Made by a program: the position numbers and the translations under genes. Positions 2,414-9,546 of a stretch of 19,636 bases of DNA are shown in pieces; positions within the stretch are counted from its first letter, which is position 1, and every line of letters begins with the position of its first letter. The stretch comes from Mycoemilia scoparia (Eukaryota; Kickxellomycota; Kickxellomycetes; Kickxellales; Kickxellaceae): NCBI GenBank assembly GCA_027575805.1, contig JANBPU010000287.1, positions 1 through 19,636 on the forward strand, read 5' to 3'. The notes under the pieces were generated by a model. That model was not told the origin of the DNA and did no database searches. It saw only the letters and a list, made by a program, of their open reading frames with translations.

Positions 2414-5400
2414 ATGAACACTACTAACGACGAGGACAAGTTAGATAGCAAACCCGTTGACAATGTGGATGCAATAATAGACAGTGGCAGCAGAGGCACA
2501 GCTACTAGCCCTGGCACTAATACTACTGTCACTACTGGGACAGTATCCCTTCCCGAACCACCCAAGAGAAAGCGTGGTCGACCACGTTTAAGCGATATAA
2601 ATAAAGCGCCAACGGTTAATAATCATTGTAAAATAGCTGCTAATGGTGCCGAATCAGGACCTGATCTAGCACTGCCAAAGCGCAAGCGCGGAAGGCCGCG
2701 GAAGACAGACCAAAAGATCTTGGAAGCTCAAAGGGAAGATCATCCTTGTGGCTCTTGTGGAAAGCTTCAAGACAATCGACATTTGCGAAGAATTGTAGAT
2801 GGATTGCGAGTATGCTCCGAATGTGTGCCTAGTTACATGACCAGACGCATTGATCGTAGAGTTCGTGCTCCAAGTGGCAATAGTGCCAATGTGTTTCCAG
2901 ACGATCTTGCCTTGCCAAGTCCGGCAAATACCATTGAATCATCATCTACAACTCCGGTTCCACGATCATCCAAGGTCAAGGGCTCCGATTCACCATTGAC
3001 TCCAATAACACCGGCCCAGATTCTCGAAAAGTATACTGACAGCCATGAAAGTTCTAATATGGCCACAGAATATTTTGGCGCCAATGAGCTAGGAAACACC
3101 ACAGGTATGGTGTCTAATCAGTCGTCCCAGGTTAACACGGTACTTGATGATTCTGATTCATCAGATCCTCTAAGTTCAGTATACGATCTAACCGACTTTT
3201 GGAATTCAGACGAGAATCCAAAGGAATGCAGTGATCCTATCCAAGACAAACAAGCTAAAGATCAGCAACCCAAAGAAACACCAACCGTCCAGAAAAACAA
3301 ATCCGCATTTTATACAACAGGCGCTTTCCTTACCCGCAGGACAATAGAAAAACTGACAGATGGTTTAGGTATCTCCAACATATCGGACATCCAGCAGTAC
3401 AGTACAAAGGTCTACCAACTTGATGATCGGATAGAGGTCCTCGGTCTTGAAAAGATATGGCATCCAGGTCGTATCTCCCTTATTAGAAAGGCCCGGGCAC
3501 TTGTAAGTTATGATGGGTGGCCTAGCGAATTTAATGAATGGGTCGATTTGAGCTCACGGAGATTACGTCCCGCTTTTTCACAAGTTGCGAACCAGAATAG
3601 TAATTGTAATTCCAAAGATGATGATCGTTACAGCCAATGCCAACCGCTTCAGCCAACCGAAGGCATTATGAAGGAACCAGGCATGAAAACGACCAAAAAG
3701 GTTATAACTTCATTGTCACCAATCCCAGCTACTGGTCATATTAAAAGGCCAGTCGGAAGACCTAGAAAAAACCCACTGCCTATCCAAGCCAGCCTATCAA
3801 GCAAAGACAGTACTGCGGGTAGTGGCGCTGAGAATATACCGGAGAGTATTAGTAGCTCTAAAAGTAAGGCAGCAAATAAGAGGGGTAATAAACGAAAAAG
3901 CATACCAAGAGCGCGATCTAAGGACGTTGATCAAGTTGACGAAACTAAAGAAACCTCTTTAGAACCAAATAGTAAAAACTTTGTGACTACAGGTGCTTTC
4001 CTTACAAGAAGAACACATTCAGTCTTAGCAAAGGAAGAAGATGGTTTGGTTGCCATGTATCACGGGTGGAGAGCAGGCGAGTTTGTCGAGGTTTTGAATA
4101 TAGACAAGCACTGGTATGCAGGCAGAATTATTACATTTAAACTTGGAAAAGCGCTGGTTTACTTCTTGGGCTGGGAACATTCTCTCAATGAGTGGGTAGA
4201 TATTGAAAGTCCCAGGTTACGAAAACCATCTCAGCCCGACCCAGCACTTGAAGCTGACTCTGCAGCAACAGCACTATCATCACTAGAAAAGGATGGAGTC
4301 GAGAAATCCATTGCTTCAAGATTGTGGAAGGAATATAATGAGTACTTGAAGGTAAAGGCTGCACCACAAACATCAAGAGTGGTTAAACCCAAGAAACAAG
4401 GAAATGTGGGTCCCAAAAAGCGAATTGACCCAACTGGGCTAAACGAGAGAATAAAGAGTATAGCCAATATTTCAGGTCCAACAAGAGGTGGTGATAGCGG
4501 AGACAATGCTGATAACAGCAATTTGGTCATAGAAGCTGATCCTCTCACAGACGAACAACTATCTGAATACAAGCCTTTGCCACAGCTTCTCCGTGTTAAG
4601 GATTACAGTGACTTATATAAGCCCAGGTTGAAAATAGCATTGCGTGACAGGAGTAAGGAATGGTGGGCAGCCACAGTAATAGAAACAAAGTCGTTTCGAG
4701 TACTTATCCATTATGAGGGCTTTCCTCAATCATATGATGAATGGCTGGAGATGAACTCTCAACGTATAATGATACCAAAAAGTATCCAAGAAGATGAGAG
4801 CTCTGATCAAAAGAAAGAACAAAGTATTGATAGTTCCGAGGATGATGTTTATGTTGATATCGAGTCTGTGGAATATTCTGAGCCCGAAAGAATCCTTACA
4901 GAGAATGTCGCTTCAACAGTAGAGATGGAGGCGGAGAATGCCTGGGATAGAGGAATTAAACCTGTCCATAAAAGTAATTCAAAGAAACAACATCTTAGCT
5001 ATGTTATAGAACAAGCCACAAAGCAGAAAAAGCAGCCTAGTGCCTACCCACTTTCCATGCGACTGGCTTACAAATCTGTGATGGAAGACGTTGATACTCA
5101 GCTAGAAAAACATCCAGAAGACCGAGGTACATTCAAGTTACCACAAAATACTATGTCTACCAAGGACTACTTGATATTTTACAAAATCAATGACAGGATC
5201 AGGGTCCGTGGTATTGACAAGGTGTGGTATGAGGGCACTATTCTAAACATCAAACATGGTCGACTCAAGATCAGGTGCGACGGATGGCCACCAAAATTTG
5301 ATGAGTGGATTGCGTTCAATTCTGATCGGCTGAGAGTGCTACTTGAAACTATAGAATCTGACCAGCGACTTGAAAAATACCTAAGCGAAGAAAGACGTCG

Positions 5401-8400: not shown

Positions 8401-9546
8401 AAAAGTACCCAAGGATAAGATTGACAGAATGATACTTTCTGATAACGAGTATAAAGAAATTAATGGATCGCTGCCTCCCGAAGATAAAGATAAAGAGGAA
8501 ATGATAGAAGTAAAATCTCGCGAAATAAGACCCATTCCTCAGTGCCCTATCGATCGCAAAAGTGTTGTTATGGGCAGTGTATGGACCTTCCATCCTCAAG
8601 GCAAGTATACGCTGCCACAACTTTGTATGTCCAGAATGGTTGAGAGATTTGGACGGGATGGTGCAAGCTGGGAGCACGTTCAACTGGAAGTCATAGACCC
8701 AGAAGCAAAGGAGGTGCCTAAAAATCCAACCTATTCGGAAGAAGGAGGTGTAGGAGGAGGATTTGGTAAGTAATTAACCTATTTGAACTGAGCATGTCTC
8801 AATGCCTAAGCAAGACATGAATAACAAATATACCTTTACCCAAAAAATACTTTAAAAGGACTCGACATCAATGCTGATGGTAATGAAATTTCAAATTACG
8901 AATTGGAAAGACAAGCCAAGATCAGGGAAAACCAAAATCGACTGCTGGCCCTTGGCTTGGTATCAGAGCTTGGCGAAGAATCGGAGGATGTTGGTCATTA
9001 TAAAAAGCTTATGAACCAACCTATAATTTCGGATCAGGATGATGATGATGCACCATTGGCTCTCATTGTCATTCCTCATATTCCCGAATCGAGCATTGGC
9101 TTCAGACATATAAAGAGTTACAGACTCAATCTTATAGCTTGTATACACAATGCGTACAAACGTCTATCACCATCTGGTCTCCTTGTCATTGGTGTCCAAG
9201 AAGTTCGCGACGAGTTTGGAAAACTTTGGCCAATGGGGATGTTGGTAGTTGAGGATGTTCAAAGGGCAGTTGGTGATATTAATTTAAGGCTGAAGGAGCT
9301 TGTTGTGTGTGTTGAGAAGGGGTGGGAACGTAAAAAGAACGAGAGCCATACAATCCAAAACTTCAAGGAGGAGGAGTGTATCATTGACGCTGAAGTTGTC
9401 AAGCACATTCCAATAATCCATGTAAGTAGCTAGACTTGTAATTATAAACTTCTGCCTTCTGATATCAGCTAAGTTATATCCATATCACTATGTTTATTTC
9501 ATGCACATAGGTCTATTATTTAGTATTTATGAAACTTAACTCATGA
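2414..9546 (+). CDS. Chromatin-reader/DNA methylase fusion protein (AT-hooks, 4 Tudor/MBT-like, ZZ, ePHD, N4/N6 methylase), 5 exons
   Basis: Predicted join(2414..5754,5865..6943,7029..8765,8859..9421,9511..9546): 6,756 nt, 2,251 residues, all junctions in frame with GTAAGTA donors. Modules seen: AT-hooks at about 51-58, 89-96 and 445-451; CxxC..CxxC finger 112-137; Tudor/MBT-like modules at about 335-386, 555-604, 734-785 and 924-974, each with W..G.I and a GW/GF..DEW/NEW signature; basic helical stretch 980-1020; ZZ-like finger from 1080 across exon junction 1; extended PHD 1260-1385; second ZZ-like finger about 1401-1451; GATA-like CxxC-X17-CxxC 1493-1517; methylase domain about 1679-1933; degenerate methylase-like half about 2116-2250. 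Methylase motifs: FLGRGT 1731-1736, GVDINP 1750-1755, HPPY 1815-1818, EGDLS 1829-1833, IGDNR from 1866. Such domains transfer methyl from AdoMet to the exocyclic amine of adenine (N6) or cytosine (N4); which one cannot be told. Nuclear chromatin action is inferred from the reader modules. The N-terminus is the least certain part. Its stop lies 253 bp from the stop of the convergent kinase gene. Confidence 0.88.
5755..5864 (+). other. Intron 1 of reader-methylase gene (110 bp)
   Basis: Donor GTAAGTAGGG, acceptor CTTTTCAG, with an ACTGAT branch-like site shortly before the acceptor. Splicing joins TG to G and restores Trp, giving the continuous ZZ-like finger ELCHWCFIGNF. Unspliced reading hits a stop at once. 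Confidence 0.9.
6944..7028 (+). other. Intron 2 of reader-methylase gene (85 bp)
   Basis: Donor GTAAGTAATG, acceptor GCCTATAG. It joins A to AT (Asn) and continues as KLRNEFVKSR into the CxxC knuckle. The earlier TCTATAG (ending at 6970) would bring a stop within a few codons, so it is not used. Confidence 0.85.
8766..8858 (+). other. Intron 3 of reader-methylase gene (93 bp)
   Basis: Donor GTAAGTAATT, acceptor TTAAAAG. It joins G to GA (Gly) and reads on as LDINADGNEISNYELERQ. The acceptor lacks a strong pyrimidine tract, but frame and phase fit and no other nearby AG does better. Confidence 0.78.
9422..9510 (+). other. Intron 4 of reader-methylase gene (89 bp), before a 36-nt last exon
   Basis: Donor GTAAGTAGCT, acceptor GCACATAG, phase 0. 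Splicing gives HIPIIHVYYLVFMKLNS and a stop. This matches the hydrophobic last-strand pattern expected at the end of a methylase fold, whereas unspliced reading stops after three residues. Confidence 0.85.

Follow-up and report, generated by a model that had tools for sequence, protein, structure and literature searches.

A predicted chromatin-reader protein with a restriction-type methylase domain and its decayed copy in early-diverging fungi

Introduction

What might a fungus do with a single protein that joins a long array of chromatin readers to a DNA methylase of the bacterial type? The question is raised by H4219_005352 of Mycoemilia scoparia, a gene deposited as a "hypothetical protein" that lies at positions 2414-9546 of contig JANBPU010000287.1 (assembly GCA_027575805.1). 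The window referred to below is the whole stretch analysed, positions 1 to 19,636 of this contig. A first-pass annotation, made from the letters alone, had described one spliced frame of 2,251 codons holding AT-hooks, four Tudor/MBT-like modules, ZZ-like and ePHD fingers and a methylase domain that is not MT-A70-like. The follow-up suggests, with a probability of about 70%, that the gene encodes a nuclear reader-writer protein of early-diverging fungi, whose DNA amino-methylase descends from a type II restriction-modification methylase and likely acts on N6 of adenine.

Gene structure and reader modules

The gene reads as a single frame in five predicted exons, with all introns bounded by GT..AG. 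The single frame of the first-pass annotation therefore stands, and its length is corrected to 2,264 residues. The features, all on the forward strand (+), are as follows.

2414-9546 (+): whole gene H4219_005352, 5 exons, 2264 residues; frame reconstruction and protein search
2414-5754, 5865-6943, 6990-8765, 8859-9421, 9511-9543 (+): exons 1-5, with the stop at 9544-9546
2555-2593 (+): AT-hook 1 (RKRGRPR); motif in the sequence
2675-2713 (+): AT-hook 2 (RKRGRPR); best stretch of the sub-cut-off Pfam AT_hook match of exon 1 (16.2 bits)
2747-2833 (+): CxxC..CxxC finger, GATA-like by eye; no Pfam match over cut-off
3413-3580 (+): Tudor/Agenet module 1; best solved match PHF20L1 Tudor, and Pfam
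3740-3772 (+): AT-hook-like motif 3 (GRPRK); sequence
4067-4237 (+): Tudor module 2; best solved match PHF20L1 Tudor
4589-4771 (+): MBT module 3; best solved match L3MBTL3, and Pfam
5165-5347 (+): Tudor/chromo-like module 4; best solved match PHF20L1 Tudor, and Pfam
5681-5943 (+): ZZ-type finger by eye, split by intron 1 (5755-5864); alignment with eight homologues, no Pfam match over cut-off
6421-6681 (+): ePHD finger; PF13771 match at about 6442-6678
6709-6858 (+): second ZZ-like finger; sub-cut-off Pfam match
7076-7165 (+): GATA-like CxxC..CxxC finger; sub-cut-off Pfam match
7655-8404 (+): catalytic methylase core, borders approximate; Pfam, PADLOC and alignments
7799-7816 (+): motif I, FLGRGT; sequence
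7856-7873 (+): GVDINP; sequence
8051-8062 (+): HPPY; sequence
8207-8218 (+): GDNR; sequence
8597-9543 (+): decayed methylase-domain copy, borders approximate; end of exon 3 and exons 4 and 5, with a profile match at residues 2129-2227

The GenBank model (P0045) has 2,220 amino acids and is shorter by 36 residues at the exon 2/3 junction and by the whole last exon, so that it departs from the reconstructed frame at about 6874-7030 and 9422-9546 of the window. The last exon agrees with the IVHAYYLVFMKL ending in related proteins. The exon 2/3 junction lies within a poorly conserved linker where the closest relatives are gapped, and it allows three in-frame splice choices. The exon 1/2 junction falls inside a ZZ-type finger that is unbroken in 8 aligned homologues; because this junction sits within a continuous finger, the exons for the readers and those for the methylase are parts of the same protein.

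The reader modules were scanned with Pfam exon by exon in four exons (including the scanned part of exon 4), with matches listed at E up to 0.1. Exon 1 matches MBT (64.6 bits, 3 stretches), Agenet (53.9 bits) and the MORC2 chromo-like domain (36.4 bits), and exon 2 matches ePHD (PF13771, 46.6 bits), all over their cut-offs. The AT-hook (16.2 bits), ZZ (17.7 bits) and GATA (16.4 bits) matches stay below their own cut-offs, and the scanned part of exon 4 gave no Pfam match. The protein has four Royal-family modules, three of which, tested singly, find the PHF20L1 Tudor domain as their best solved match, while the remaining one (residues 726-784) matches the MBT domain of L3MBTL3. PHF20L1 and L(3)MBT readers are thus the best sequence matches of the fungal Tudor/MBT modules; these animal readers are not known to carry a DNA methylase. 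The modules named at first sight were all found again, the AT-hooks and ZZ-like fingers with the sub-cut-off scores just given, and their fusion to a writer in one protein is supported by Pfam and by the exon 1/2 junction.

The methylase domain

All five methylase motifs of the first-pass annotation are present in the reconstructed frame: FLGRGT at residue 1744, GVDINP at 1763, HPPY at 1828, EGDLS at 1842 and IGDNR at 1879. Both the S-adenosylmethionine (SAM) motif FxGxGT and the motif IV pattern xPPY are therefore there, as FLGRGT and HPPY, and motif I stands ahead of HPPY in the order X-I-IV. HPPY is a variant of motif IV common to the fungal protein and its prokaryotic relatives. Exon 3 matches N6_N4_Mtase (PF01555) at 38.4 bits against a cut-off of 26.7, and the type II methylase model PDLC03376 of PADLOC matches residues 223-470 of the exon 3 translation at 124.7 bits (E 1.3e-36). 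DNA-methyltransferase families were found in PHROGs with up to 33 bits, and NCBIfam gave the window exon sub-cut-off matches only (CcrM 18.4 bits). When the PDB was searched with a family profile, the top match was 2zie, a putative modification methylase (68.9 bits), and the N4-cytosine enzymes 8s9m and 8s9n were also listed.

Membership in several known methylase groups was considered and rejected. MT-A70 enzymes (MTA1/AMT1) are characterised by PF05063, a model absent from the matches of the methylase exon (listed at E up to 0.1), and the protein has HPPY rather than DPPW; with PF01555 over its cut-off, the first-pass view of the domain as not MT-A70-like holds. Neither THUMP nor UPF0020, as in the Trm11/TrmN tRNA methylases, is listed in the four scanned exons at E up to 0.1, and PF02384 of MetB is not listed for the methylase exon. 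The bdelloid-type N4CMT is of the permuted beta class, which does not fit a protein with motif I before HPPY, although the fusion of an amino-methylase to a predicted histone reader is a trait that the two share by sequence.

Behind the catalytic domain, the chain continues into a stretch without motif I and without HPPY. For the C-terminal duplicate, hhalign gave a score of 107 and a probability of 98.9, against scores of at most 18.6 in 20 column shuffles. A decayed C-terminal copy is also found in two-domain prokaryotic relatives, and the profile of the prokaryotic C-terminal part matches the C-terminus of the window protein at 34.1 bits. By these alignments, and as a correction to the first-pass annotation, the second half of the methylase module is a decayed methylase copy; the enzyme reads as a pair of predicted active and inactive methylases in one chain, from a tandem duplication that prokaryotic relatives also have.

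A conserved family in early-diverging fungi

A protein search with residues 1260-2264 as the query found 143 long matches, of which 120 were listed, one being the window's own protein. The names of all the named proteins (all but four of the 120) read as early-diverging fungi, from Kickxellales, Dimargaritales, Zoopagales, Basidiobolus, Mortierellomycota, Mucoromycota, Glomeromycota, Calcarisporiella and Spizellomycetes-type chytrids. By a hand count of the 120 that includes the window's own, PF01555 is present in 109, the ePHD model in 110, MBT in 100 and all three in 82. A pattern census of the same proteins found motif I in 116, motif II in 115, HPPY in 118, the DLS motif in 116 and GDNR in 119; at least one of the five patterns is missing in 11 of these predicted proteins. 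More early-diverging fungi, along with metagenome proteins, came from two further searches, one of which also found prokaryotic relatives. No Dikarya name occurs among the matches listed by the three protein searches, which is not proof of absence. The predicted copy of Mucor lusitanicus (P0147) has all five motifs together with MBT, ePHD and PF01555. The fusion is, on these comparisons of predicted proteins, a gene family conserved across early-diverging fungi and not a one-off. An exon-by-exon search of the M. scoparia genome for PF01555 matched this locus only. A predicted homologue of Calcarisporiella thermophila (P0099) carries a Rab-GAP TBC domain behind the methylase, perhaps as a fused gene model.

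Prokaryotic relatives and origin

Relatives of the methylase are widespread in prokaryotes: 499 were detected in bacterial and archaeal genomes, and the best 80 of them, ranked by a query alignment headed by a prokaryotic protein, come from many phyla and include some archaea. The core of the window protein is 39-42% identical, over 232-246 positions, to the eight closest of 98 prokaryotic cores (a set that is partly redundant, with proteins and loci of the same organism). Together with the type II methylase models, this bears out the prokaryotic kinship proposed at the outset. PDLC03376 matches the prokaryotic relative P0033 at 304 bits. Searches of phage and plasmid collections gave one weak phage match and one Fusobacterium record.

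In 51 of the 80 loci, a same-strand open reading frame (ORF) starts within 60 bp of the methylase end or overlaps it, and in 74 an ORF of any kind lies behind. A DpnII-type cluster has 15 members in 15 of the 80 loci and is adjacent to the methylase in 12 (at most 300 bp behind or 60 bp ahead); three of its members were identified by Pfam, with 122, 64.8 and 286 bits. Another partner cluster, in three loci, is a PD-(D/E)XK nuclease by the one member tested (PDDEXK_11, 48.6 bits). At locus L068 the methylase stands 5 bp behind a DpnII nuclease, and a motif-pattern scan found no D12-like methylase there. In Fusobacterium vincentii, a one-domain relative ends a row of D12 methylase, DpnII and Mrr-type nuclease; this row, with its one-domain HPPY methylase, lies at L088:1363-4729 (NZ_CP084075.1), in a record labelled plasmid though 2.1 Mb long. 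Restriction nucleases thus stand beside some relatives only, and most of the 80 loci lack a demonstrated restriction setting. DpnII is a GATC-cutting nuclease that N6-adenine methylation blocks. Because type II methylase models match and DpnII-type nucleases are neighbours, DNA is the likely ancestral substrate by sequence kinship, perhaps at a GATC-type site.

Other partners of the prokaryotic methylases were also observed. Families of about 185 and 190 amino acids stand behind methylases (L016:7514-8068, L008:7645-8229 and kin); the members read share TPKHxH and have no convincing Pfam, PADLOC or NCBIfam match, and these proteins could be unrecognised nucleases or controllers. A partner of 400-450 amino acids (cluster 2) lies behind the methylase at L015:1717-3069 and L027:7631-8839, with two tested members that match families weakly. 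The cluster of a 189-amino-acid partner (L026:7533-8102) is adjacent in 3 loci; this protein is DarT-like by eye and has no Pfam match.

A tree was made with IQ-TREE from 27 of 130 fungal-set and 40 of 98 prokaryotic cores, as left by redundancy filtering. The cores were cut by motif; in 228 of 243 sequences the two motifs fell within range. The fungal set forms one clade with a support of 100/100 in a run whose ultrafast bootstrap was unsettled. The fungal-set label takes in the metagenome proteins P0017, P0018, P0022 and P0163, of which P0018 and P0022 are long-branched and near the base of the clade. The named groups inside the clade largely track fungal taxonomy, by reading. The simplest reading of this tree would be a single acquisition that predates the divergence of chytrids from zygomycetes, followed by vertical descent. 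The tree is unrooted as to the direction of transfer; what suggests a transfer from prokaryote to fungus is instead how widely the relatives are spread among prokaryotes, and that some of them lie in a restriction setting.

Within the window, no restriction partner adjoins the fungal gene, which is flanked by genes for an EF-2-type elongation factor and an ABC1-type kinase. The fungal protein is kin to a restriction-modification system and not itself one. The neighbouring genes of the window are as follows.

1-1329 (+): EF-2/EF-G-type elongation factor, 3' part
9803-11836 (-): ABC1-type kinase
13142-13480 (-): phospholipid methyltransferase exon
17126-17494 (-): RPB9-type zinc ribbon protein, sub-cut-off match
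17959-18618 (+): ribosomal L1/L10-type protein

Proposed function and alternatives

The following course of events would account for the protein. An early fungal ancestor would have acquired, probably once, a two-domain prokaryotic type II methylase made of an active class I domain and its decayed duplicate. The acquired methylase would have lost its restriction partner and been placed behind the AT-hooks, the four Tudor/MBT modules and the ZZ-like and ePHD fingers. In the nucleus, where the protein presumably resides, methylated histones and DNA would be docking sites for the readers. The active domain, with its FxGxGT and HPPY motifs, would methylate the exocyclic amino group of a nearby DNA base, with N6 of adenine as the likeliest position. 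Its ancestry points to GATC, or to a less strict form of this site, as a possible target. The decayed copy would probably stabilise the enzyme and help to hold DNA, as is thought for METTL14 and Mta9 with their active partners.

Several observations weigh against this proposal. As HPPY is neither DPPY nor SPPY, the methylated base is not readable from motif IV. A search of solved sequences with the window exon alone gave weak matches only, to PrmA (18.8 bits), Trm11 (18.4 bits) and CcrM (17.0 bits). The fold comparisons put the tRNA N2-methylguanosine (m2G) methylases Trm11, TrmN and Trm14 first. VIA-align was run on a prokaryotic model, and absence from its list is no evidence against a family; Foldseek with the window's own model found generic class I methylases with Trm11 at the top. 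The predicted structure of the window exon is poor overall (mean predicted local distance difference test, pLDDT, 58.5), with core blocks mostly at 70-95. In two chytrid proteins, the C-terminal copy reaches only 10.5-12.0 bits. Among the prokaryotic relatives, several pass the cut-off of the RNA-methylase model PF01170 (25.9-32.5 bits), and the tested members of the commonest partner families (clusters 1, 2 and 4) and of two others have no convincing Pfam, PADLOC or NCBIfam match. Finally, no abundant N6-methyladenine (6mA) product of this protein is visible in Mucor. According to the part of PMC11258239 that was available, Mucor has two reported 6mA systems, MetB (PF02384) at asymmetric sites and Mta1/P1 at symmetric sites; the loss of metB removes 70-75% of 6mA, and the mta1 and p1 mutants retain no symmetric 6mA.

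Since symmetric 6mA is gone in Mucor without Mta1 or P1 even though P0147 keeps its motifs, the protein is not the writer of abundant symmetric 6mA there. The maintenance role suggested in the first-pass annotation is for the same reason unsupported. The enzyme may instead act at few sites or stages, make N4-methylcytosine (4mC), use single-stranded DNA, or contribute part of the 6mA that remains after the loss of metB.

The best-surviving alternative is that the enzyme methylates N4 of cytosine, leaving a 4mC mark like that of the bdelloid N4CMT, which would escape 6mA assays. PF01555 spans N4-cytosine as well as N6-adenine enzymes, 8s9m and 8s9n came up in the profile search, and no abundant extra 6mA is seen in Mucor. 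However, the partnering of relatives with DpnII-type nucleases favours adenine, and motif IV is HPPY instead of SPPY, which leaves cytosine the unlikely base. It is also conceivable, if improbable, that the methylase now serves as a scaffold or SAM sensor and that the protein is mainly a chromatin reader. No methylation product was visible in Mucor under published conditions, and the 11 proteins with a missing motif pattern would fit such a loss; against it stands the retention of GDNR, HPPY and motif I in nearly all of the 120 listed proteins (119, 118 and 116).

There is slim prospect that the enzyme acts on RNA, as a tRNA-type base methylase like Trm11 or TrmN. Among solved folds, those of tRNA m2G methylases are indeed the nearest, but the concern raised in the first pass, that the domain might match RNA or tRNA methylases only, was not borne out, as type II methylase models matched. 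The best profiles are those of type II DNA methylases, and in the prokaryotic relatives tested against both models PF01555 outscores PF01170 (93.9-119 bits). The absence of THUMP and UPF0020 from the exon listings, HPPY in place of DPPY, the restriction nucleases beside some relatives and the chromatin readers of the fungal protein likewise speak against RNA. A merger of two neighbouring genes by read-through of introns, for which the three splice choices at the exon 2/3 junction leave a little room, can practically be set aside given the conserved finger across the exon 1/2 junction and the 82 listed proteins that combine MBT, ePHD and PF01555.

Comparison with known systems

The prokaryotic methylases of the PDLC03376 kind share the X-I-IV order and HPPY with the fungal protein, and their two-domain members share the decayed C-terminal copy. 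The fungal protein differs in its long N-terminal reader array and in having no nuclease gene adjacent in the window, and it shows no recognisable counterpart of the zinc/helix part at the N-terminus of the prokaryotic proteins.

The closest precedent for the design is the N4CMT of bdelloid rotifers, described in the accessible part of PMC8885841 as a PF01555 amino-methylase of bacterial origin with a Royal-family histone reader. Both proteins join a bacterial-type PF01555 amino-methylase to a histone-reader domain. However, N4CMT as described there is of the beta class, in which the catalytic part precedes the SAM part, and has SPPY, one C-terminal chromodomain and a distribution confined to bdelloids (PMC8885841), whereas the fungal protein has the X-I-IV order, HPPY, several N-terminal readers, an in-chain pseudo-methylase and a distribution in early-diverging fungi. 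The kind is therefore already known from N4CMT; what differs is the class, the motif, the spread, the reader array and the in-chain pseudo-methylase.

MetB of Mucor is likewise a DNA methylase of prokaryotic origin in early-diverging fungi, but it has PF02384 and a target recognition domain in place of PF01555 (PMC11258239, as far as available). PF01555 is not mentioned in the available text of PMC11258239. A search of the M. scoparia genome for PF02384 gave one match on another contig, which is HemK/PrmC-like by eye (NPPY). The MTA1 complex (Mta1/Mta9/P1) also pairs an active with an inactive methylase. These are MT-A70 proteins (PF05063, DPPW) in separate chains, unlike the single chain and different subfamily of the fungal reader-methylase. 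MT-A70 matches lie on two other contigs of the M. scoparia genome; a DPPW-type pattern scan of the MT-A70 loci L002-L004 found nothing, perhaps owing to introns. A 5-methylcytosine-type DNA methylase (PF00145, 174 bits) was also observed in this genome, in a 1,637-residue open frame at G000 C433:25629-27059.

A 2026 review of fungal DNA methylation, in its available part, names MTA1c, MetB and METTL4-like 6mA writers. A full-text literature search found no description of the fusion in the titles and abstract starts of the matches listed, with the 2016 survey by Iyer and others outside its scope. That survey of eukaryotic adenine methylases reportedly lists many independent acquisitions and may include this clade.

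Significance

A wider proposal is offered tentatively, at rather less than even odds: besides MTA1 and MetB, early-diverging fungi may have a third system of DNA amino-methylation. This would be a single-chain pair of active and dead methylases, acquired once near the base of the fungi and steered by built-in histone readers, and it would write 6mA or 4mC at selected chromatin sites, for example as a seeding writer or as one tied to certain stages. With it, a third candidate writer would join those named in the available parts of the 2024 and 2026 papers. The protein looks like a restriction-modification methylase turned chromatin enzyme, with active/inactive pairing outside MT-A70. With catalytic motifs kept in several fungal phyla, it is a candidate for a single molecule that ties histone marks directly to DNA methylation, and it bears on how 6mA reaches particular chromatin sites in early-diverging fungi.

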